Positions 1-12,352 of a stretch of DNA of 55,205 bases are shown here, piece by piece. The first letter of the stretch is position 1; each line of letters begins with the position of its first letter. The DNA lies in the NCBI GenBank assembly GCA_013203465.1, contig JABMNR010000032.1, forward strand, positions 1 to 55,205. The letters run 5' to 3'. This DNA is from Alphaproteobacteria bacterium. Its GTDB lineage: Bacteria; Pseudomonadota; Alphaproteobacteria; Thalassobaculales; Thalassobaculaceae. The position numbers and the translations under genes were made by a program. The notes below the pieces were generated by a model. The model ran no database searches, had not been told where the DNA came from, and was given only the letters and a program-made list of their open reading frames with translations.

Positions 1-77
1 CGGAATTGGTAGACGCGCAGCGTTGAGGTCGCTGTCCGGTAACACGGGTGGAAGTTCGAGTCTTCTCGACCGCACCA
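1..77 (+). tRNA. tRNA-Leu (anticodon GAG), 5' end cut by the window
   Basis: The 3' portion of a class II tRNA is visible. The anticodon stem CAGCG/CGCTG (18-22 and 30-34) encloses the loop TTGAGGT, giving anticodon GAG at 25-27. A long variable arm follows, then a T arm with loop TTCGAGT and a GGAAG/CTTCT stem, the 3' acceptor strand, discriminator A and an encoded CCA at 75-77. About ten 5' bases lie outside the window. tRNA-Leu genes are common integration sites, and the genes to its right look accessory. I found no second copy of its 3' end in the next 9 kb. Confidence 0.95.
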
Positions 78-228
78 CATCTCTTTTCGAACCGTTAATG
101 TTCTCTAACCTATTGAATAGCAAGGTAGTTTTTGCCGCTCAATAACCTTGGCATCGGGCATAGGGCAAAAGCGCGGCAAACGCCACGCACGGCGGTATCA
201 GAGTTAATCTCTCAAGATCGTGAGCCGC

Positions 229-1416
229 TCAGAGACGCCTCGGCAAATACCGCGCGAACCATGCCGTCATGAGCAAAATCAACCCCAGAACCACGAACAC
301 CGTCTGAAGCGGCGCTATCGAGAGAACGGCGGTATAGAGCAGCGCCGGAACGAGCTGCGACGCCTCGATATAGGTTCGGAACACCGACGTCATCTCGGAG
401 CGCTCATAATAGTGAACCGCGCGCAGAAATGGGATGTTTCCCAACGCGTCGAGAGCGACCGCGCCGACCGCCGCCAGAAAGAACAGGAGGGCGGTGATGA
501 TCGGGCTTGCGCCGGCGATTCCGGCCACGATCGATAGTATTCCCGTACACGCCGCCGCCCAGATAATGATCCGCCTGATACCGTAACGATGGCCTAGCCT
601 ACCGAACATCGGGGCGACAAACAGCAGACCCTGACCGCCCGAAAGCATTAGCGCGACAAGAATCTCATCGCCGCCGGCCCGGATGATGTATAGCGGCGGA
701 TAGACGAAGAACGTGGTCCAGAACGCGCTGCGGCCGAAGGGAATGATCCAAGCCAAGCGCAATCGCGGCTGCTGCAGATACCGCCCGATGTATTGCCACG
801 GCATCGGCGGACGACGGGTGGCGGGTGCCACCGCGGAATTCTCTTGAATGCGCAGCACCCAGAAAAAAATCAAGGCGACCACCGCGAACCCGGCACTTAA
901 CAGGCAGACGGCGGGAAGCCCCTCGGTTTTGTAAAGATAGATCCCCATGGCCGGTCCGATGAACCAAGCGACCCCCAGGAACATCAGGCGCAGGGGCTCC
1001 GCGGTGACGAACTCCCGCTTACGAATGTAATCGAGAATGTAGAGATTAAGCGAGATGTTGACCGCAACGACGGCGATCGCCCGAAACTGAAGGGCGACGG
1101 TAAAGGATGCCTCGGTCGCCAGGATCAGGAGCAGCGGCGCGACCACCATGCACCCAACCCCGAACGTGAAGACCCATTTTCGTCTCAGCCGCCGCAGTAC
1201 CAAAGGCACCAAAAAACTGGATCCGAACGCGACCGCTCCGATAATGGTGTAGAGAACGCTGATGGCTTGCGCGTCATGAATGAGCCGTTCCGCTTCCAAC
1301 GGCAAGATGCCGGCGATGAGCGCACGCGAGAACGCCTCCACCGCGCTGAGACTTCCAAACACCCGGGCCCCGGGTCGGTCGACGACCCGCATCCACATCG
1401 GAAACCGAATTTCCAC
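229..1416 (-). CDS. MFS transporter, 12 predicted membrane segments
   Basis: A 395-residue polytopic protein with about twelve hydrophobic helices and a basic RLRRK-type cytoplasmic loop after the second or third helix, as in the major facilitator superfamily. The substrate cannot be read from the sequence. The start is a GTG at 1414-1416 with AAGGGAA about nine bases upstream; a nearby internal ATG is an alternative. It is divergent from the substrate-binding protein gene to its right, with a palindromic repeat in the 213-bp gap. It lies next to a pair of ATP-grasp ligase genes and another MFS gene, so an exporter role for a small ligase product is conceivable. That is inference. Confidence 0.8.
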   Translation of the reverse strand: MEIRFPMWMRVVDRPGARVFGSLSAVEAFSRALIAGILPLEAERLIHDAQAISVLYTIIGAVAFGSSFLVPLVLRRLRRKWVFTFGVGCMVVAPLLLILATEASFTVALQFRAIAVVAVNISLNLYILDYIRKREFVTAEPLRLMFLGVAWFIGPAMGIYLYKTEGLPAVCLLSAGFAVVALIFFWVLRIQENSAVAPATRRPPMPWQYIGRYLQQPRLRLAWIIPFGRSAFWTTFFVYPPLYIIRAGGDEILVALMLSGGQGLLFVAPMFGRLGHRYGIRRIIIWAAACTGILSIVAGIAGASPIITALLFFLAAVGAVALDALGNIPFLRAVHYYERSEMTSVFRTYIEASQLVPALLYTAVLSIAPLQTVFVVLGLILLMTAWFARYLPRRL

Positions 1417-1458
1417 GGTGTGTTCCCTTAGTCGTCTTGCATTGGGATTTACGCGATG

Positions 1459-1529
1459 GCTAGTGGTCTGATCTGGTGGGGCGATTCACGAAACGAATGG
1501 AACCTATCCGTTTCGATCGCACCACTAGC
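1459..1529. repeat. Short palindromic element with inverted ends (MITE- or IS-end-like)
   Basis: The ends are perfect inverted repeats of nine bases, GCTAGTGGT at 1459-1467 and ACCACTAGC at 1521-1529. The similarity extends to 13 of 15 bases if the GATC further in is included. Inner arms CGAAACG (1489-1495) and CGTTTCG (1509-1515) are also complementary, and GTGG/GCGAT pairs with ATCGC/CCAC, so most of the 71 bp could fold as a hairpin. The left 21 bases recur with one mismatch, in inverted orientation, at 27585-27605. This fits a miniature transposable element or the fused ends of a deleted insertion sequence. No transposase is present. Confidence 0.6.
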
Positions 1530-1629
1530 TCAGCATGACCACATCGTCCTTGAAGCGGTATCGTTTTCCGCGTCAAATCACTCTTTAATCGACCCGTTCT
1601 CCGCAACAACCCATTCGGATCAGTCTCGT

Positions 1630-2358
1630 ATGTCTCCAGATATCGTGAACGATCTCGCGCCGACGGGCGTGCTGCGCGCCGCCATCAACATGTCCAACTT
1701 CCTGCTGGTCACCGGCCGTACCGAGGACGGCGATCCAGACGGTGTGTCGCCGGACATGGCGCGCGAAGTCGCCAGGCGTCTGGGTGTCGAGGTGACACTC
1801 CTACAGTACAAGACTCCCGGTGAGGTGGCGGACGCGGCCGGTACCGGCCAGTGGGATATCGGAAACATCGGCGCCGAACCGCAGCGAGCGGAGAAGATCG
1901 ACTTCACCGCCGCCTATTGTGAGATCCAGGCGACCTTCATGGTGCCGGCCGGCTCGCCATTGCAGACGGTCGAGCAGGTCGACAGCCCCGGTGTGCGCAT
2001 CGCGGTGTCCGCCCGCAGCGCCTATGACCTCTGGTTGGAGCGGAACATCAAGCAGGCCGAACTGGTCCGCGCCGAGGGGCTCGACGCGTCGTTCGAGCTG
2101 TTCGTCGCCGGGAAACTCGATGCGCTCGCCGGGTTGCGTCCCCGATTGATCACCGATGTGGAGAAACTGCCCGGCGCCAGGATTCTGGATGGCCAGTTCT
2201 CCGCCGTCCAACAGGCAATCGGCATCACGCGCGGCAAGGATGCGGGCGCGGCCTATCTCAAGGACTTCGTCGAGGAGGTCAAAGCCTCGGGGTTCGTCGC
2301 CCACCTGATCGAGAAGCACGGCGTCGTCGGCCGTCTGTCGGTGGCGCCGCCCGCCTGA
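1630..2358 (+). CDS. Family 3 solute-binding-domain protein lacking a signal peptide
   Basis: A 242-residue protein resembling bacterial extracellular solute-binding proteins family 3 (polar amino-acid binders). It opens with a GVLRAAINMSNF strand, then has the characteristic DGVSPDMAREVARRLGVEV segment, a DIGNIGAEPQRAEKIDFTAAY segment and a C-terminal AAYLKDFVEEVKASGFV helix. Family members are usually about 250-280 residues with an N-terminal export signal. Here neither this start nor the longer frame from 1456 offers one. I chose the ATG at 1630 because the domain starts at once and the upstream frame runs through the palindromic repeat; no clear ribosome site helps. No ABC permease or ATPase is near. 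It may be a cytoplasmic binding or enzymatic version of the fold. Confidence 0.75.
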   Translation: MSPDIVNDLAPTGVLRAAINMSNFLLVTGRTEDGDPDGVSPDMAREVARRLGVEVTLLQYKTPGEVADAAGTGQWDIGNIGAEPQRAEKIDFTAAYCEIQATFMVPAGSPLQTVEQVDSPGVRIAVSARSAYDLWLERNIKQAELVRAEGLDASFELFVAGKLDALAGLRPRLITDVEKLPGARILDGQFSAVQQAIGITRGKDAGAAYLKDFVEEVKASGFVAHLIEKHGVVGRLSVAPPA

Positions 2359-2591
2359 ACAGACGTGCACCCTTGAGGGTGGACAATGATCCGGCGGCTG
2401 ATTTGCCCGTTCACCGGGTGTGCCGATCCTCGAGCGGTAGCGGGCTCCCGATGTGCCAGCCCGCATGTCGCACAGCCAGCGTCGTTGCATAAGCGACGAA
2501 CCAAGGCACGGGGAAGGCTATATAAGATCGATGCGGAGAACATGCCGACGGTGATGTGACAACATCGGTCCTTGTAGTACGATTGCAAATA

Positions 2592-3602
2592 ATGTGGGGA
2601 CGAGGGTCACAGCGCGTGCGTGTACTTTTCTTGTTTCTCTTGGCTTTCGTTCTGCTGGTATTCGATCAAACCGCGAATGCCTGCATTATAATGTCGGTCA
2701 CGCACCGTGCCGACACTCCCGCCGAACTTGGGTTCTTCGAAGAACTCCGCGCGAATGGCATCGAGTGCACCGTCGAAAAGCACAACATAGACGGCAAGTC
2801 CGACCGCCTCCCTGAAATCGCCGCACAAGCCCGAACCCTGCGACCGGATCTGATCTTCTCCATGACAACGGTCGTCACCAAGGGGTTGGCCGGGCGCCAT
2901 GACGCGGAGGACGGAATTCACGATATCCCGATCGTGTTCGCGTTGGTCTCGGATCCGGAGGGCGCCGGGCTGGTCGCGGAAAGACAGGATCCGGACGCTC
3001 CGCTCCTTTCCGGGCGAAACCTGACCGGCGCCCGCCATGTTGTGTCCCACGCGGTCCGGTTCGATGCCATGCGGCGGTTCGGCAGACTCAATCGGCTGGC
3101 GATCCTTTTCGACGGGTCTTCCCCGGCACAGCTTGCCATGGTGGATGCCATGCGCGCGCTGGCAAACCAGGCCGGTGTGGAACTCTTGCTTGAGACCCCG
3201 CTCGACGAGGCGGGCAAACCGTCCGTCAACCGTATCCCCGAGATGATGGATCGCGTGGCCGCCTGGGGTCCGGACCAAGTCTATCTCCCGCCCTCGAATT
3301 TTTTCGCGCGTCATGCCGGCCTGATCACGGACGCCATCACCGATCGCGGACTCGCGAGCTTCTGCGGGCTCGAAACCTATATGGAGCGAAGCTGTCTGGT
3401 CGGACTGGTTGCACCGCTTCGCGCGGTCGGCCGATTGGCCGGCCGTAAGGCCGTGGCCATTCTGCGCGACGGCGCGGATCCGGGAGAAGTGCCGATCGAA
3501 ACGCTGCCGCGGTTCTCCCTGATCGTGAACATGCCGGTCGCGCGCCGCCTTGGAAAGTACCCGTCACTGCAAATGCTGCACTATGCGCATGTGCGGGAGT
3601 AG
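2592..3602 (+). CDS. ABC_sub_bind-type (TrpX-like) exported substrate-binding protein
   Basis: A 336-residue protein with a hydrophobic export signal (basic start, then LFLFLLAFVLLVFDQTANA) followed by a two-lobed periplasmic-binding fold of the ABC_sub_bind family. The pattern RADTPAELGFFEELRANGIE, DLIFSMTTVVTKGL, PIVFALVSDPEGAGLV and FDAMRRFGRLNRLAILFD is typical of that family, which binds aromatic amino acids or related ligands where known. The ATG at 2592 places the signal peptide at the N-terminus; the frame is open to 2556. It is followed 23 bases later by an ATP-grasp ligase gene, so the two are probably co-transcribed. No partner permease or ATPase is visible, so it may serve sensing rather than import. 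Confidence 0.78.
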   Translation: MWGRGSQRVRVLFLFLLAFVLLVFDQTANACIIMSVTHRADTPAELGFFEELRANGIECTVEKHNIDGKSDRLPEIAAQARTLRPDLIFSMTTVVTKGLAGRHDAEDGIHDIPIVFALVSDPEGAGLVAERQDPDAPLLSGRNLTGARHVVSHAVRFDAMRRFGRLNRLAILFDGSSPAQLAMVDAMRALANQAGVELLLETPLDEAGKPSVNRIPEMMDRVAAWGPDQVYLPPSNFFARHAGLITDAITDRGLASFCGLETYMERSCLVGLVAPLRAVGRLAGRKAVAILRDGADPGEVPIETLPRFSLIVNMPVARRLGKYPSLQMLHYAHVRE

Positions 3603-3625
3603 CCTGTGATCGGTAAGGAGATGCG

Positions 3626-4708
3626 ATGACACAGGTCGGCGGCACGGGATCGAACCTCTCGCCGAAACAGCTTCCGGACGGCGCGGAGACCACGCTCCGA
3701 ATTCTCTACCTGGCGCCGCACGCTCCAGAAGCGCCGAACACTCCGCCACCTCCGGAGATGGATTCCCGTTTCGGCCTTCAGCCGCACTATCATTATTCGA
3801 TCTACCGTGTGTTGCTCGATCTAGGGCTCACGGTAACTCCTGGACGGGATGCGGCGGATCTGATGCGCGACCCGGGAGCGTTTAATTACGTCTTCACCCT
3901 TCACAACCGGGGCCGGCACCGAAACTCCGAGGTGCTGATCTCAGCCCTCTGCGAACACGCGGGGCTACCCTATCTCGGCGCACCACCCAACATGCGGGCG
4001 CTCGCGGAGGATAAATGGCTGACCAAGCGAACGGCCGCCGCCATGGGGCTGTCCGTCATCGAGGGCTGCGCCTATCGGGATCATTCGGAACTCGACCGTG
4101 AGCCAGGCTTTCCGGGCCCTTTTATGGTCAAGCCGCGCTTCGGCGCCGCATCCGAGCATATCGGCGCCGACGCGGCCTGCATCCGCTGGGAGTCGGCCCG
4201 AGACCGCGCGGCCCATCTATTCGATCTCGGCGAAGAGGTTCTGGTCGAGCGGTTGATCGACGGTCATGACATCACGGTGCCGGTCCTGGGCGGACTGACG
4301 CCATGCATCCTTCCCGCGGTCGAAATCCACTCGGCGCTTCCACACGGGGTCGTCAGCCATGGCCAAAAACGCGCCCTGGAGGAGGGGCGGAGCCGCAAGC
4401 TGATCCCGGTGGGCGAGCTGCCCGTTGGCTTGCGTCGCGCCGTGGATAGCTTGATCGAGGAGGTCATGCCGTTCGACTACCTTCGGATCGACTTCCGGAT
4501 CGACGCGCGGAGCGGGATGCATCACTTGCTGGAACTCAACCAATGTAGCTCGCTGTCCCCAAGTAACGCACTGGGCGCGTCCGCCGCCTCCGTGGGTTTA
4601 GGGACGCAGGATCTGGTGCAGCACATTCTAGCCTTGAGCCTGGAACGCCAGTGGGATCGCTACCAGCGTCTCACGAAGAACCAAGCGCCGGACGCCCGCC
4701 GTTCATAA
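3626..4708 (+). CDS. D-Ala-D-Ala-ligase-like ATP-grasp enzyme, paralogue A
   Basis: A 360-residue ATP-grasp ligase related to D-alanine-D-alanine ligases, which join two amino or carboxyl substrates through an acyl phosphate. Visible landmarks are LPYLGAPPNMRALAEDKWLTK (115-134), the ATP lysine in VKPRFGA (K169), EEVLVERLIDGHDITVPVLGG (203-223), and the metal site LRIDF (D289) with LELN (E303, N305). The HGxxGEDG substrate loop of true Ddl is replaced by FTLHNRGRHRNSE (90-102). A proline run PPPPEMD precedes it. A paralogue with the same two peculiarities lies at 7105. The 3' end overlaps the convergent sensor-MFS gene by 38 bp. Specificity is unknown, and a peptide-like secondary product is more likely than cell-wall D-Ala-D-Ala. 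Confidence 0.8.
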   Translation: MTQVGGTGSNLSPKQLPDGAETTLRILYLAPHAPEAPNTPPPPEMDSRFGLQPHYHYSIYRVLLDLGLTVTPGRDAADLMRDPGAFNYVFTLHNRGRHRNSEVLISALCEHAGLPYLGAPPNMRALAEDKWLTKRTAAAMGLSVIEGCAYRDHSELDREPGFPGPFMVKPRFGAASEHIGADAACIRWESARDRAAHLFDLGEEVLVERLIDGHDITVPVLGGLTPCILPAVEIHSALPHGVVSHGQKRALEEGRSRKLIPVGELPVGLRRAVDSLIEEVMPFDYLRIDFRIDARSGMHHLLELNQCSSLSPSNALGASAASVGLGTQDLVQHILALSLERQWDRYQRLTKNQAPDARRS

Positions 4709-7040
4709 GAAAAAGCGCCCCGACACCGAGCGCATTGATCAGGAGCCAGATCGCGAGCATGGTCGCGGCACCCTCATACCCGAAGGCTTGGCTCAAGGCG
4801 GCGACGACGAGCGGACCGGCCACGCTCCCCACTCTTTCCAGCAGCCGGAACGCCACCAGGAGACTGGCCTGTCCATGCCGAGCAGCACTATCCGGGAAAC
4901 CGACACCGAGATAGGCGATCATAGGCGCCCGGCTGGTGCACTGCGCCGCACCGATCGCGATGATCGACAAGACCAAGACCAGGTGCTGCGGCACACCCGC
5001 CAGCGATTGGCCGAATGCCAGCAAACCGCCACCGGCCGCCGCCACGAACGCGCCCGCCAAGATCACCCCGCGATGGGCGTTCGCCTGATCCGCGAGACGG
5101 CCGGTTACCGGAATGAGAACCAGCATCGTGATGAAGAACACCATCATCAACCGGCCGATATCCGAAGGTTCGTATCCCAACTCATTGAGGGTCAACGGAA
5201 CCAACAGGTAGAAGAGGCCGGTCAGTACCACCCTGGACGGGATCGCCGCCAGAATCATGAACAACATAAACACGGGGTCGCGAAGCACACCGATCCAGTT
5301 GCTGGACCCGCTCGCCTCGGAGGCGCCTACGTCGGTGCCGTCGCGGACGTTGGCGCGGGTCACGAAGATCGCCAAGATCAGGATCAGGCCGCCGACGATG
5401 AACGTCGGTCGTTGACCAATGCTGTCCGCCAGGATACCGCCGATCGCGGCCGCGCACACCGAGGCCGCGACCGAGGCCGCCACGAAGACCCCGACGCTCC
5501 GGGTCAGTTCGCTTCGCTTGCTGTGAACGGTCGTGTGCAAAATCGCGGCCACGGTGACGAGGCCGAACCCACCGGCCGTCAAGCAACGCCAGACAGTCAG
5601 ATCCCAGAGACCCTGGGCCGTCGCGGTGAAGCACAACCCAACGGCACTGGGTATCATTCCGAAAATAAGGGTGCGCCGGATGCCGAACCGACGGATCAAG
5701 GATTCCGCGAAGGGGGTCGCCAGCACCATCGCCAGGACCCAAGCCGACATCGGCAACGCGATCGCGATCTGCCGGCTGAACGGGAGCCCGGGATCGTATA
5801 GATCGGCGACGAACAGCGGGAAGAATGAACGGGAGATCTCGGTTCCGAGGAAGACGAGGAAGATCGGAAACCTGATGTCGTCGACCAAACCGGTTGAACC
5901 GACCAGGCCGTCGGTCGCCGGCGGCGCTTGCGCCATCGCCGATCCCATGCCGAAAAGGATTACTTCCCGCGTGGCGAAAACGGCCACGAACAGAACCACC
6001 ATCAGATCGATCGACATCGCACGGAGGTGGCTAAGAACGTAGCCGGGATCCGCAATCAGGCTAAGCCGCAACGCGCCGTCGTCCGGCGTCTTGATAGCCT
6101 CCTCGGCGAGCACACGGCCTCCGAGCGCTCCGGCTTCTATTTTCCAATCCCGCGCCGAAGCGGCAAGCCGGATGCCAGCGATTTCGGAGTGTTCCTGAAT
6201 CGTCCTATCAAGCAGCAGATCGACGCCCTGCAATTCGGCGACTGGAACCCCGAGGTCGTAGGCGCGCGAGAGTTCACCGCCGACCAGCGCGGCCAACACT
6301 CTTGCCTTGTTCTCCGCGGCGGCGAGAAGATTTCGGTCAAATAGGATGAAAATCGCCGCCAGCAGGATCGCCATGGCTACCGGAGTGGCGATTGTCAGCA
6401 CCGTTCCGAGCCGCGATGTCCCGGGCGGCGCCTTCTCGTTTAGCGACGTAGCGTCCTGCGAACGGGTCGAGCCCCGGACCGCGGTTGCATAACTAACGGC
6501 TGTCGCGACGCCGACCAGGAGCACGGTCAGGATCGACAAGACCAAGCGGATTTCGCCTAGACGCTTCTCGTTCTCGGTTGTCTCGTAGCGTGCCTCGACC
6601 CATCCCGCGATCCCTCCGGTCGGCGCGGCGATCGGCGCATAAATGTGAAACCGCTCGTCACGGACCAAAACGAATGGATCCGCCGGATGAAGCCGCCCAC
6701 GGGTCTCGATATCCTTCGGGTCCGGGCGGCTGGCCGGGGCGCCGGCCTGATAGAGCGGTTGCCACGCGGCGTCGAAAACCGCCATACCGATTAGCTGTTC
6801 ATCTCGGCTGGCGACCCGTTTCACGATCTCCTGACCATTTCCCAAATCAGAGAGAGGCAAGCCCAGGGACGTGGCGGCGGCGAGAATGTCGCGCGCTACC
6901 GTGACCACCGCGTTGGCCCTGGCTTTCTGGAGGTCCTCGAGTGCCAGTCGAGCCTTGTCTAAGCCAAGGATAGAGGTAAGGATAAGTCCTACGGTGATTA
7001 CCGTGACGGCCGCGATGATCGGTAATCGAACATTCTGCAT
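4671..7040 (-). CDS. MFS transporter fused to two tandem membrane-anchored sensor-like modules
   Basis: 789 residues, about twice the usual MFS size. Residues 6-26 and about 166-188 are membrane helices flanking an extracytoplasmic segment. Helices at about 213-234 and 343-363 flank a second one. An MFS domain of about twelve helices fills 388-785. The two segments are related to each other: SLGLPLSDL then LIGMAVFD in the first match DLGVPVAEL then IAGIRLAA in the second. Such helix-periplasmic-helix units resemble chemoreceptor or histidine-kinase input domains, so the transporter may be ligand-gated; that is inference. It is divergent from the second ATP-grasp gene (64-bp gap) and convergent with the first (38-bp overlap), which suggests one functional unit. 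Confidence 0.8.
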   Translation of the reverse strand: MQNVRLPIIAAVTVITVGLILTSILGLDKARLALEDLQKARANAVVTVARDILAAATSLGLPLSDLGNGQEIVKRVASRDEQLIGMAVFDAAWQPLYQAGAPASRPDPKDIETRGRLHPADPFVLVRDERFHIYAPIAAPTGGIAGWVEARYETTENEKRLGEIRLVLSILTVLLVGVATAVSYATAVRGSTRSQDATSLNEKAPPGTSRLGTVLTIATPVAMAILLAAIFILFDRNLLAAAENKARVLAALVGGELSRAYDLGVPVAELQGVDLLLDRTIQEHSEIAGIRLAASARDWKIEAGALGGRVLAEEAIKTPDDGALRLSLIADPGYVLSHLRAMSIDLMVVLFVAVFATREVILFGMGSAMAQAPPATDGLVGSTGLVDDIRFPIFLVFLGTEISRSFFPLFVADLYDPGLPFSRQIAIALPMSAWVLAMVLATPFAESLIRRFGIRRTLIFGMIPSAVGLCFTATAQGLWDLTVWRCLTAGGFGLVTVAAILHTTVHSKRSELTRSVGVFVAASVAASVCAAAIGGILADSIGQRPTFIVGGLILILAIFVTRANVRDGTDVGASEASGSSNWIGVLRDPVFMLFMILAAIPSRVVLTGLFYLLVPLTLNELGYEPSDIGRLMMVFFITMLVLIPVTGRLADQANAHRGVILAGAFVAAAGGGLLAFGQSLAGVPQHLVLVLSIIAIGAAQCTSRAPMIAYLGVGFPDSAARHGQASLLVAFRLLERVGSVAGPLVVAALSQAFGYEGAATMLAIWLLINALGVGALFLMNGGRPALGSS

Positions 7041-7104
7041 AGACGCGAGCGCTCCGATTTAGAACATCGCCGCCCCTTCATCGGAAAAGGACGACCGGAC
7101 CTCG

Positions 7105-8139
7105 ATGAACCCGCCGCCAACAGATCAGCTTCTGACGTTGACGGATGAGGAGATCCAACGGCTGGATGTGTTGTTCTTGGCCAAGTATCCACCGAAGCCA
7201 GGGGCGCCACCACCCCCGGAAGTCGACCCGGTCATAGGACGTGAGCGTCTGACAAAGTGGGAAGTTTTTAACGCTCTCCAATCCCTGGGACTGACCCTTT
7301 CGACGGTCGAAACCCTGGAAGAGTTCAAGCGTTACACGGGCTCGGCAAACTACGTTTTTTGCTTGTTCAATCGTGAGGACATCCGGAATCCGGAAACCGT
7401 GGTGGCATCTCTCTGCGCACAACGCCGTCTGCCGCATCTTGGCGCCCCCCCGAACCTTCGGGCGATGGCCGAGGATAAATTCCTGACCAAGTCGGTCGCG
7501 GCCTACGCCGGGCTTCCGGTCGCGCCGGGGGTGACCTATGTCGATCTCGACGACCTGGCCGTCCCGCCTCCCTTCGAGGGGCCCTATTTCGCGAAACCCC
7601 GTTTCGGCGCGAACTCGGAGGGGATCACGGCCGAGGCCGCACAGCCCGATTGGTCCCGGCTCAAGCCCGTGGTCGGGAAATTGATCGAAGACGGCGAGGA
7701 GGTCTTGGTGGAGCCCCTTCTGGCTGGACGGGACATCACGGTGACCGTTCTTGGCGGCCGGCCGAACTTCGCCCTGACGCCCACGGTCTTCAAGTCCGAA
7801 CTGCCTTACGGTATCGCGACGGAGGGTCAGAAACGGCTGCTAGAGGGCGGACGGTCTGGTGGGCCACTGGAAGACTCCGAGTTGTCCAAAACCGTGATGA
7901 ATCTGGCGCTTGAATTCGCGGCTTATTGCAAACCGTTCGACTACATGCGGGTGGATTTCCGCCAAACCCTTACCGACCGCCGGCTGAGCCTTTTGGAATT
8001 CAACCTAACCAGCAATCTAGGGACCCATGGTGCGACGGGCATCGCGATCCGCAACGATCGCATCTCCCATGTCGATCTGATCCAGCACTTGGTCGCATAC
8101 AGCACGCGGCGACAGAAAGTCCTGCTGCCCCAGACGTAA
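7105..8139 (+). CDS. D-Ala-D-Ala-ligase-like ATP-grasp enzyme, paralogue B
   Basis: A 344-residue paralogue of the ATP-grasp protein at 3626. It shares the proline run PPPPEVD (35-41), the loop YVFCLFNREDIRNPE (83-97) in place of the Ddl HGxxGEDG loop, LPHLGAPPNLRAMAEDKFLTK (109-129), the ATP lysine in AKPRFGA (K164), EEVLVEPLLAGRDITVTVLGG, and the metal ligands D284 (MRVDF) and E298/N300 (LLEFN). The final substrate loop differs (LTSNLGTHG against QCSSLSPSNA), so the two enzymes probably use different substrates or act in sequence. The ATG at 7105 has only a distant AAGGA. The gene is divergent from the sensor-MFS gene, so the short gap between them should hold promoters for both. Confidence 0.8.
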   Translation: MNPPPTDQLLTLTDEEIQRLDVLFLAKYPPKPGAPPPPEVDPVIGRERLTKWEVFNALQSLGLTLSTVETLEEFKRYTGSANYVFCLFNREDIRNPETVVASLCAQRRLPHLGAPPNLRAMAEDKFLTKSVAAYAGLPVAPGVTYVDLDDLAVPPPFEGPYFAKPRFGANSEGITAEAAQPDWSRLKPVVGKLIEDGEEVLVEPLLAGRDITVTVLGGRPNFALTPTVFKSELPYGIATEGQKRLLEGGRSGGPLEDSELSKTVMNLALEFAAYCKPFDYMRVDFRQTLTDRRLSLLEFNLTSNLGTHGATGIAIRNDRISHVDLIQHLVAYSTRRQKVLLPQT

Positions 8140-8292
8140 CTGGCAAAACACTTGCGATGATACAAACCGCTAATGGTCAACGCTTTCTCGCAGTACCGAT
8201 GAAGTTGATCGGTTCGACAGGCGGCGACCTCCGACAATCAATTCAGCTGCTTGCCATATTGTTCACGGCTATTCGATATCGTACCCTCCAGG

Positions 8293-8610
8293 GCCGGTGC
8301 CGGGACGCTGATGACCTTCAGCCCCGACCCGCGCAAGAACCCGACCGCCGCGCCGCTGGTTAAGACGTTCCGCGACAACGGCATCGAGCCCGAGGGTTAC
8401 GTTCTGTACACCTACGCGGCGATTCAGGTGTTCGCCGAGGCGGCCAATGCCGCCAAGTCGACCAAGCTTCCGGACCTGTTGAAGGTGTTGCACTCGAAGA
8501 AGTTCGACACGGTGCTGGGGGAGTTGTCCTTCGACAAGAAGGGCGACGTCACCCTGCCAGGCTACGTGTGGTACATCTGGAAAGATGGAAAGTACGACTA
8601 CGTGAACTGA
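8293..8610 (+). pseudogene. C-terminal remnant of a LivJ/LivK-type branched-chain amino-acid-binding protein
   Basis: About 105 residues from AGAGTLMTFSPDPRKNP to KDGKYDYVN match the C-terminal quarter of leucine/isoleucine/valine-binding proteins, including EPEGYVLYTYAAIQVFAEAA, KKFDTVLGELSFDKKGDV and PGYVWYIWKDGKY. Family members are about 370-400 residues with a signal peptide. Here the first two-thirds are missing and the sequence upstream of 8293 has no such similarity. The frame can open at a TTG at 8251 but has no convincing ribosome site. The intact downstream terminator suggests this is the 3' end of an old gene whose front was removed when the neighbouring cluster arrived or was rearranged. 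Confidence 0.8.
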
Positions 8611-8627
8611 TCGCGCCCATTTGTGAC

Positions 8628-8657
8628 AACGGCCCGGCCGTCACCGGCCGGGCCGTT
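8628..8657 (+). terminator. Rho-independent terminator after the LivJ remnant
   Basis: A perfect 13-bp stem (8628-8640 pairing with 8645-8657) closes on the four-base loop TCAC and is followed by TCATTTT. It sits 18 bases after the LivJ-type stop codon. The 8658-8878 stretch to the next gene shows no other feature. Confidence 0.85.
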
Positions 8658-8878
8658 TCATTTTCGGTCTGGTGTCACGGCGATCGCCGATGGCGGATCG
8701 ATCGCGGGGAGACGATCCACCGCCAGCTCGGCAACCGTTTGCCCGTCCCTCAAGGCATTCTAAGCTACCCGCGGGTTATACGCCGACATGCGCTGTCCAG
8801 TGTCCGGGAGCAGTTCGGTGTTGTATTCGCGACAACCGTACTGTTTTTACCGGCAATGCCCCCCGACGAGGGATATTC

Positions 8879-9914: not shown

Positions 9915-10607
9915 TCAGAACGTCTCCAGCCAGGGACGTAGCTCGATCTCCCAGGTCCAGGCGCTGCGGTGCTGGCGCAAGATGTGGAGGTAGGTTTCGG
10001 CGATGGCGTCGGGATCGAGGAAACCGTCCTGACCGCGTGGCCCCCGTGTATCGCCGGGCACCGCGATGCCGCCGTCGATCACGAAATGGGCGACATGGAT
10101 GCCCTTGGGCTGAAGCTCGCGGGCCAGCGACTGGCATAGGCCGCGCAGCGCGAACTTGCCCATGGCGAAGCTCGATGAGTTCGGGTAGCCCTTCACCCCA
10201 GCCGACGCGCCGGTGAACAACAGGGTTCCGCTCTTCTTCGGCAGCATACGCTTCACCGCTTCCTGGGCGACCAAGAAGCCGCCGTAACCGGTGATCAGCA
10301 CGGCATCGCGCACCTTCTCGCGGTCCAGCTCCTCGATAGGACCGCGAACCCGGGCCGAGGGGTTGAAGACCACGACGGTCGGCTCCCCTAGATCGGCGTC
10401 CACGGCTTGGAACAACTCGGTCACCGAGGCCGGATCCGAGGCGTCGCAGCTATAGGATTTGGCCCCGGTCTCGGACACAAGGTCGGCCAGCTTGTCCTTG
10501 TTGCGCGCGGCCAGCGCCACCTGCATGCCCTCCTTGGTGAACAGGCGCGCCAACGAGGCGCTGAGGCCGGCGCCGGCGCCGACGATAAGGGCGGTTTCCG
10601 TGCTCAT
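9915..10607 (-). CDS. SDR-fold protein with Phe in place of the catalytic Tyr
   Basis: 230 residues with the short-chain dehydrogenase Rossmann start ALIVGAGAGLSASLARLF (nucleotide binding, 6-23) and a typical order of strands. The active-site YxxxK motif reads FAMGK (F147-K151): the lysine is kept and the tyrosine hydroxyl is absent. The following ARELQPKGIHVAHFVIDGGI is characteristic of a poorly studied SDR subgroup that commonly has Phe there. Oxidoreductase activity is therefore uncertain. Its ATG overlaps the stop of the upstream ThDP-enzyme gene in an ATGA, so translation is coupled, and the two probably act in one pathway. Confidence 0.85.
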   Translation of the reverse strand: MSTETALIVGAGAGLSASLARLFTKEGMQVALAARNKDKLADLVSETGAKSYSCDASDPASVTELFQAVDADLGEPTVVVFNPSARVRGPIEELDREKVRDAVLITGYGGFLVAQEAVKRMLPKKSGTLLFTGASAGVKGYPNSSSFAMGKFALRGLCQSLARELQPKGIHVAHFVIDGGIAVPGDTRGPRGQDGFLDPDAIAETYLHILRQHRSAWTWEIELRPWLETF

Positions 10608-12262
10608 CGATCACTCCACTTCTTAATGGGCCGCATGCGGGTCGGGCGGATCACCGCCCAGGGGTCGGGGAATTCGCCGACGGGAACCTCGATCACGGTT
10701 GGGCGGCGGGCGGCGAACGACTCTCGGACGGCGGTGCGCAGTTGGTCGGGTGTCTCGGCGCGGCGGCCGTCGGCTCCAAAACTCTCGGCGAATTTGACGA
10801 AATCCGGGTTGGTGAAGGTCGAGGCCAGCACCCGGCCGTCGTGCAGTTCCTTCTGCATCCGCAGCACGTTGCCGTAGGCGCCGTCGGCGAACACCACCGC
10901 CACCACCGGTAGGCCATGATGCACCGCGGTGGCGATCTCGTTGGCGGTGAACATGAAGCCGCCGTCACCAGAGACCGACAGCACCGCCTTGTCCGGATGC
11001 GCGGCCTGCACGCCGAGCGCGGTCGCGTAGCCATAACCCAGGGTGCCCTGGTAGCCCGGAGTGATCATGGTGCGGGGTGCGTAGATCGGAAATCCGACCC
11101 GCGCGATGTAGCCGACCTGGGTGAACTCATCGACGAACAGACCGTCCTCGGGCAAGGCGTCGCGCAGGGCTTTCAGGAACCCCATTTGTGGCGACATCGC
11201 CTCCTCAAGGTGCGCCCAATGCTTGGCCTTGAGGGCGGTGTACTCGTCCGATCGGTCGGCGCGGGTCCGGTTGTGCCGGCCCAGGGCGGTGATCAGCGCT
11301 TCGGCGGAGCGCGCGGCGTCGGCGACGATGCCGACTTCGGGCTTGGAGATGCGCGGTATTTCGGTGGGGTCGATGTCGACATGAACCAGCCGCACCCCGT
11401 CGTCGATCCCCCACATCTGGCGTTCGGGCTGCATGCGGCAGCCGATGGCCAGGGCCGCGTCGCAGCGTATCCACTGCTCACTGCCGGGCATGATGGTGAA
11501 GCCCAGAGGCGTGCGTTCGTCGACGACACCACGTCCGTTTTGATACGACACCACCGGCGCTTGCAGCATCTGGGCAAGCTCGCGGATCGACTCCGCCGCG
11601 TCGTACGCGCCACCGCCCACGAAGATCATCGGATTCTCGGCGTTGCCCAGGATCTTGGCCGCCGCGTCGATCTGCTCGGGATCGGGCTCCACCGGACTGT
11701 AGACCTCGGGCACCTGGGGGTCACCGACCATGGCGCGCTCGGCCAGCACGTCCATTGGTACCTCGATGGCGGCGGGGCGTGGCCGTCCGGTGTGCAATTG
11801 GCGGAAGGCGTCCGCCATGATGCCCGGTACATGGCTCGGATGGTCGATGTGGGCGGCGAACTTGGTCAGCCGTTCGAGGATGCCGAGCTGATCGGGGATC
11901 TCGTGCAGCATGCCGTAGCCCCGGCCGATGGCGTCGGATGGGATCTGGCCGGTGAGCGCCAGCACCTTGGCGCCGCAGCCATAGGCGGTCGACAGTGCCC
12001 CGGTGGTGTTGAGGATTCCGGGGCCGGGCACCACGGCGTAGGCGCCAACCTTTCCGGTCGACTGCGCCCAGCCGAACGCCATGTAGGCGGTGCCCTGCTC
12101 GTGCCGGGCGTTCAGCACCCGTATGGCGTTGGAATGGTCATGCAAGGCGTTGAACAGGTGGTCCAACTGCACACCCGGCAAGCCAAACACGGTGTCGATG
12201 CCGTGAGCGATGAGTGAGCGAACCATGGCGTCGCCGCCGGTCATGCGGGTGGTGGCGGTCAT
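10604..12262 (-). CDS. Thiamine-diphosphate-dependent enzyme (acetolactate synthase/benzoylformate decarboxylase fold)
   Basis: 552 residues with the three domains of the ThDP decarboxylase/synthase family. The Pyr domain carries the catalytic glutamate in NARHEQGTAYMAFG (E55), the central domain follows PMIFVGGGAYDA, and the PP domain has GDGGFMFTANEIATAV and VVFADGAYGN. The usual NN metal-site pair is AD here, which could still bind magnesium. The start at 12262 has GGAGAAA about six bases upstream; the longer frame to 12298 lacks such a site. It may cleave or form a carbon-carbon bond on a 2-keto or 2-hydroxyacyl substrate; the substrate is not readable. The SDR-fold gene is translationally coupled downstream and a CoxL-type gene lies 90 bp upstream. 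Confidence 0.85.
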   Translation of the reverse strand: MTATTRMTGGDAMVRSLIAHGIDTVFGLPGVQLDHLFNALHDHSNAIRVLNARHEQGTAYMAFGWAQSTGKVGAYAVVPGPGILNTTGALSTAYGCGAKVLALTGQIPSDAIGRGYGMLHEIPDQLGILERLTKFAAHIDHPSHVPGIMADAFRQLHTGRPRPAAIEVPMDVLAERAMVGDPQVPEVYSPVEPDPEQIDAAAKILGNAENPMIFVGGGAYDAAESIRELAQMLQAPVVSYQNGRGVVDERTPLGFTIMPGSEQWIRCDAALAIGCRMQPERQMWGIDDGVRLVHVDIDPTEIPRISKPEVGIVADAARSAEALITALGRHNRTRADRSDEYTALKAKHWAHLEEAMSPQMGFLKALRDALPEDGLFVDEFTQVGYIARVGFPIYAPRTMITPGYQGTLGYGYATALGVQAAHPDKAVLSVSGDGGFMFTANEIATAVHHGLPVVAVVFADGAYGNVLRMQKELHDGRVLASTFTNPDFVKFAESFGADGRRAETPDQLRTAVRESFAARRPTVIEVPVGEFPDPWAVIRPTRMRPIKKWSDR

Positions 12263-12352
12263 CTCGTGTTTCTCCAGTTCAGCGTGATGCTCACCCAACG
12301 GGCCGGGTCGGGCAAGCCGCCGATGCGCACGAGTGTTTTTACCGGCTCGGTT

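Follow-up and report, generated by a model that had tools for sequence, protein, structure and literature searches.

An alphaproteobacterial module of Ddl-like ATP-grasp ligases, a binding protein and a sensor-fused MFS protein, and its relation to a wider sensor–transporter cassette

ATP-grasp/GNAT amidoligase clusters are a known class, and they are among the closest described relatives of the locus considered here, a module of two Ddl-like ATP-grasp genes (GRASP1 and GRASP2), an exported binding protein of the ABC_sub_bind family and a major facilitator superfamily (MFS) protein fused to sensor segments (the sensor-MFS). The module lies near the start of the window, the whole stretch of DNA that was analysed, namely bases 1–55205 of contig C8 in the 4.48-Mb, 238-contig assembly of an alphaproteobacterium of the family Thalassobaculaceae (GCA_013203465.1). 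As in the amidoligase clusters, ligases adjoin transport genes (a GNAT-like and an ATP-grasp gene in the case of Azospirillum); the difference is their steady attachment to a cassette of sensor-MFS and ABC_sub_bind genes. The orphan solute-binding protein (SBP) and secondary transporter of the window recall tripartite ATP-independent periplasmic (TRAP) systems, but they are ABC_sub_bind and MFS proteins rather than DctM, DctQ and DctP, and a sensor fusion and two ligases are added; unlike that of an ABC importer, the SBP has neither permease nor ATPase in positions 1–8660. Transporter domains joined to signalling parts have been described as SLC5/STAC histidine kinases (PMC9100948) and as an Amt histidine kinase (PMC5764959); compared with these, the window differs in its MFS domain, N-terminal periplasmic sensor and dedicated SBP, and in having no kinase domain. 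No description of this combination was found in open-access papers, subscription papers being mostly outside that search. The parts are of known kinds; put together, they appear to form a so far undescribed variant of transporter-coupled sensing assisted by an SBP.

An earlier note on this DNA had proposed a six-gene cassette in positions 1–8660, consisting of these four genes with a further MFS gene (MFS1) and a family 3 binding protein gene (SBP_bac_3). ORF calls and domain searches confirmed all six ORFs with the domains and at the places it gave. The ABC_sub_bind gene (2556–3602, forward strand; TrpX-like; Pfam PF04392, E 2.7e-15), whose product is predicted to be exported by its hydrophobic N-terminal segment, is followed after 23 bp (3602/3626) by GRASP1 (3626–4708, forward; PF07478, E 1.4e-7). 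GRASP1 converges on the sensor-MFS gene (4671–7040, reverse; 789 aa; MFS_1, E 1.8e-28) with an overlap of 38 bp (4671–4708), and 64 bp (7040/7105) separate the latter from the divergent GRASP2 (7105–8139, forward). These three spacings are as the note had them, and its statement that no ABC permease and no regulator is present was borne out: neither of these, nor an ABC ATPase, occurs among the ORFs and domain matches of positions 1–8660.

The four genes ABC_sub_bind, GRASP1, sensor-MFS and GRASP2 (the core four) are a real recurring unit of shared ancestry. ATP-grasp genes were searched for in 36 genomes of the host family and 385 of the host class, and then in 14 genomes of another alphaproteobacterial family, designated f81; a scan of a genome collection added loci L064, L065 and L066, the first two of which were judged to be the same records as genomes G775 and G398. 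In the family and class searches, relatives at ~40 % identity occurred as a pair only in genus g233 of f81, and the collection scan found the pair in L066, a metagenome-assembled genome (MAG) labelled Gammaproteobacteria. No close ATP-grasp relative was found on the plasmids searched. The four core families co-occur, with identities of about 40–45 %, in the g233/f81 loci L058/L065, L059, L064/L153, L154 and L155 and in L066, and each fetched locus with a GRASP pair also has ABC_sub_bind and sensor-MFS genes, save L156, where the contig ends inside GRASP2. The order in the window is ABC_sub_bind (forward), GRASP1 (forward), MFS (reverse), GRASP2 (forward); in the relatives it is MFS, sensor and GRASP2 (all reverse), ABC_sub_bind and GRASP1 (both forward), then a reverse SpoIIE gene with another sensor, L066 instead having HATPase, SpoIIE and second sensor-MFS genes on the MFS side. 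Overlaps of 4 bp join MFS to sensor, sensor to GRASP2 and ABC_sub_bind to GRASP1 in L059. The same gene content in a rearranged order argues for linkage under selection rather than by chance. In phylogenetic trees, the window GRASP2 fell in a clade with GRASP2 of L058, L059, L064, L066 and L154 (support 100/98), the window ABC_sub_bind joined the f81 and L066 copies (100/100), and the window MFS joined their MFS counterparts (99/94, or 97/92 for the MFS domain alone).

The L066 module (L066:7832–19480), which carries in addition a second sensor-MFS with SpoIIE, is ~69–81 % identical to the f81 copies in its MFS and ABC_sub_bind proteins; its presence in a MAG labelled Gammaproteobacteria may reflect recent transfer or misclassification.

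Accidental juxtaposition at a contig end had to be considered, since the window starts at base 1 of its contig and two of the six genes of the proposed cassette did not behave as members. SBP_bac_3 (1456–2358, forward) was rejected: it is conserved in 24 of the 36 host-family genomes and has a native GC content at third codon positions (GC3) of 0.83, like the rest of the contig. The earlier note had called its product signal-less; the ORF exists, but most homologues align only from residue 54–67 onward (about 58), and the true start is therefore placed near Met59 (~1630). MFS1 (229–1416, reverse) had no homologue in any related cluster fetched, and its membership is kept possible solely by a low GC3 like that of the core, the four core genes and MFS1 having values of 0.72–0.76. 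Four of the six families that the note had grouped thus recur jointly in distant genomes, SBP_bac_3 and MFS1 not being among them. For the core four, recurrence in a rearranged order, joint phylogeny and presence in distant genomes refute an accident, which as an account of the whole locus is very improbable; it does hold for SBP_bac_3 and perhaps for MFS1. The note had also held that the grouping would be accidental if ATP-grasp genes mostly occurred without the MFS and binding proteins, a pattern seen only in more distant ATP-grasp clades, which lack the cassette and lie beside vanadium-type nitrogenase (L067–L069) or NTP-transferase genes.

GRASP1 and GRASP2 are paralogues (42 % identical) with a likeness to Ddl, as the note had supposed. 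They share with Ddl the ATP-grasp fold and the metal/ATP core RxD...ExN, which both retain; the AlphaFold2 model of GRASP1 (pLDDT 89) gave only Ddl structures among its 50 best PDB matches, with target-normalized TM-scores of 0.63–0.82, and in the alignment K130, K169, E208, R287, E303 and N305 (GRASP1 numbering) are invariant and D289 nearly so. They differ from Ddl in lacking both of its signatures and in scoring 62 and 43 bits with the NCBIfam Ddl model, far under the cut-off of 243. PS00843 (HGxxGE) is absent from both and present in the genome's own, separate Ddl, and PS00844 (ending ExNTxPG) is absent from both, which read NQCSSL and NLTSNL; the strict PS00844 pattern also missed the genome's own Ddl, though this keeps NTQPG. 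The neighbourhood of that Ddl, with neighbours identified by eye, reads as a cell-division cluster. A role of the pair as the cell-wall Ddl was rejected, both signatures being absent and a Ddl being encoded elsewhere. The kept catalytic core together with the absent Ddl motifs suggests that GRASP1 and GRASP2 are probably active ligases of another substrate. Two ATP-grasps next to an MFS gene could also belong to a locus for a ribosomally synthesized and post-translationally modified peptide (a graspetide), with the ATP-grasps crosslinking a precursor peptide, but their fit to Ddl families in sequence and fold leaves this scarcely probable.

Single ATP-grasp genes of sister clades have other neighbours. 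In L067 (520–12045), L068 and L069, from Xanthobacter, Rhodopseudomonas and Methylocystaceae, the gene directly precedes an SBP_bac_6 gene and lies ~5 kb from alternative nitrogenase genes (an alpha subunit above the VnfD cut-off, a delta subunit AnfG/VnfG and a NifX-like protein), with a phosphonate-type ABC transporter nearby. In L061 (8431–11819), L113, L117 and L120 it adjoins a MobA-like nucleotidyltransferase, assigned by Pfam in L061 and from the start of the sequence in the other three.

The sensor-MFS consists of two sensor segments followed by a 12-transmembrane (TM) MFS domain. Segment 1 (residues 1–190; 6471–7040, reverse) comprises a TM helix, a periplasmic domain and a second TM helix, and matches the separate sensor gene of L058 (blastp E 4.8e-5) and the 'sens' hidden Markov model (HMM; 60 bits). 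Segment 2 (residues about 205–370; 5931–6428, reverse) was recognized from a blastp match of residues 235–288 to the sensor-MFS proteins of L058 and L059 and from the alignment; its low-confidence model has a helix, strands and a helix. The first ~200 residues of the protein thus correspond to the L058 sensor gene and the remainder to the adjoining sensor-MFS gene, and by these alignments the window protein unites, as a fusion, what f81 encodes in two neighbouring genes. Relatives carry a HAMP domain between sensor and MFS; the window copy has lost this linker, and segment 2 is joined directly to the MFS domain. Both parts also form one ORF of 855 aa in two gammaproteobacterial genomes (L186 and L187). 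Only MFS families matched the 789-aa protein in the Pfam search, which gave no kinase domain, and the sensor-segment profile, compared with structures with a Cache fold in question, reached only E 0.2–0.6, the structures concerned being those of sporulation kinase D and of one further sensor. An MFS domain is by itself no marker of the cassette, since MFS-only relatives without SBP or sensor exist on the Azospirillum plasmids pAB510b and AZO_p2.

From the observed gene content, domains, recurrence and common ancestry of the module we infer its enzymatic activity, ligand, transport direction and signalling, much as the note had thought the set suited to making, exporting and sensing a small peptide-like compound. 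In the reading that we prefer, and hold to be about evenly balanced between right and wrong, the core four work as one functional module: an amide-type compound, made or modified by the ligases, is detected and moved by the binding protein and the sensor-MFS. In the cytoplasm, GRASP1 and GRASP2 would act on a small compound of amino-acid or peptide-like kind, ligating or modifying it. Once secreted, the ABC_sub_bind protein would pick up this compound in the periplasm, or else a cue connected with it, and hand it to the periplasmic sensor segments. Ligand binding would gate the MFS, whose most likely task would be to export the product; production, export and sensing might in this way close into a loop.

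The module belongs to a wider cassette, defined in this analysis as a sensor gene or segment, a sensor-MFS and an ABC_sub_bind gene within a few genes of one another. The window falls within this definition, scoring 684, 60 ('sens') and 459 bits with the family HMMs; window sequences helped to build two of the three, and blastp and tblastn searches from other loci agree. Sensor-MFS genes (E up to 1e-25) were present in 21 of the 385 class genomes, the window's own included, and 19 of the 20 other loci were fetched. An ABC_sub_bind gene was found in 18 of these 19, the other being L093, whose contig ends 371 bp past the MFS, and it adjoins the sensor-MFS in every related locus of sufficient length.

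In 12 of the 19 loci a SpoIIE gene was also present, often with HATPase_c_2 and STAS genes, and SpoIIE accompanies the cassette in L188 as well. This resembles SpoIIE/RsbW/STAS partner switching, in that HAMP-SpoIIE lies next to the sensor/MFS/SBP cassettes of most relatives, in many cases accompanied by HATPase_c_2 and STAS genes; the window module differs in having none linked. In most relatives the HAMP-SpoIIE phosphatase, often with an RsbW-like kinase and STAS protein, would relay the signal to gene expression. A second protein with a sensor-MFS-like N-terminus and no Pfam MFS match above cut-off precedes SpoIIE in three loci (L102:4948–6843, L188:3185–5392 and L094:12637–14664) and is possibly a degenerate receptor partner.

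Type VI secretion system (T6SS) genes (Hcp, VgrG, ClpV, TssF, TssK and sheath) surround or flank the cassette in L185, L186 and L187, from the same phylum but another class, and on a Vibrio plasmid (L178), and T6SS genes also lie near it in the alphaproteobacterial loci L098 and L096 and in Azospirillum sp. B510 (L192). As a general companion the T6SS was rejected, since TssC was present in 4 of the 20 genomes with the cassette and in 69 of all 385, which is no enrichment at the genome level; it is one partner among several, adjacent in several loci. Inside the T6SS cluster, a small gene follows ABC_sub_bind in L186 (7581–8306) and L187 (7480–8208), the L186 copy matching SBP_bac_3.

These contexts bear on two other accounts of the MFS. 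It may be a non-transporting receptor working with the sensor segments and SBP, the ATP-grasps taking part in the response pathway, where they might for instance modify the ligand or a precursor of the cell wall. The HAMP domain of the relatives, the positions beside SpoIIE, HATPase and STAS genes and in or near T6SS clusters, and the precedents for transporter domains as sensors in the SLC5/STAC (PMC9100948) and Amt (PMC5764959) kinases fit such a receptor, but the window copy has neither HAMP linker nor linked output gene and its MFS domain still fits the transporter profile well, and we consider this account rather unlikely. Uptake after the manner of TRAP systems, with the SBP handing a solute to the MFS and the ATP-grasps working on what has been imported, is less probable still: an exported SBP without ABC permease does neighbour a secondary transporter, but the settings beside T6SS and SpoIIE genes suggest regulation more than catabolism. 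We also know of no SBP-dependent MFS importer, which counts against uptake.

Ligases accompany the wider cassette in other lineages. ABC_sub_bind is followed by GNAT-like and ATP-grasp_4 genes in L102, L104, L191 (A. brasilense Sp7, a laboratory strain that can be cultured) and L192 (Azospirillum sp. B510), GNAT being above the Pfam cut-off only in L191 and assigned in the other three by homology to it; consecutive genes of this set overlap in L192, and A. brasilense Sp7 carries a complete version of the cassette with them. A third type, a Ddl-like 418-aa ATP-grasp, stands beside the sensor-MFS and ABC_sub_bind genes in L109. The ligase-bearing cassettes sit in separate MFS clades, in at least three MFS lineages, the L109 branch being long and its place unsure. 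Amide ligases as a recurring partner of the cassette are suggestive rather than proven, ATP-grasp genes being common generally and the comparison having no matched background. Their presence beside the cassette in several lineages points to a peptide-like ligand that the cell makes itself. Beside another copy of the sensor-MFS cassette, L105 (11562–13474) has GNAT-like and alanine racemase genes.

We tentatively propose, while thinking it more doubtful than our preferred reading of the module, that the cassette represents a new and widespread type of signalling and transport system, one that can be coupled to SpoIIE partner switching, to a T6SS or to amide ligases that make its own signal. If so, the sensing of small molecules outside the cell would, in Alpha- and Gammaproteobacteria, be tied by one sensor-MFS cassette to three quite unlike partners. 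One of these is type VI secretion, for which the trigger is in many cases not known. A self-produced small amide signal would be detected by a transporter-receptor.

Several points weigh against the reading of the core four as a module that makes, moves and senses an amide compound. No component has a known substrate, the MFS might serve as a receptor and transport nothing, and the structure model of the sensor-MFS is poor (pLDDT 63). The window GRASP1 is nearest to the GRASP1 of the relatives, but the tree leaves its branch, and likewise its orthology, unsettled. Most loci of the wider cassette had no ligase found nearby, which makes ligases an optional partner. No SpoIIE, HATPase_c_2 or STAS gene is linked to the window module, which therefore has no dedicated output gene. 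The genome's only SpoIIE (L092:8082–10875), a HAMP-SpoIIE-HATPase fusion with a STAS-like gene after it, is near the end of another contig (C63); it is not supported as a dedicated partner, the two contig ends sharing no overlap and a relative without the cassette having a 52 % homologue, and its use by the window module is accordingly speculation.

At the edges of the locus, the tRNA-Leu of the earlier note is present at the window start, but it is truncated, its 5' end being cut off, and is not called by ARAGORN. The GC content of the first 8.2 kb (0.616, against 0.626–0.684 in the other 8.2-kb stretches examined on the contig) is, as a compositional signal, consistent with acquisition from elsewhere. 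Viral contigs searched gave no match. Downstream of the module, a TPP enzyme of the acetolactate-synthase type (10604–12298) has a counterpart (26 % identical) near the f81 module (L058:4026–6329), probably by coincidence. Beyond GRASP2 lies a LivJ-type C-terminal remnant (8251–8610, forward), which at about 8290–8610 matches residues 262–362 of a 370-residue model and is a possible boundary of an insertion.

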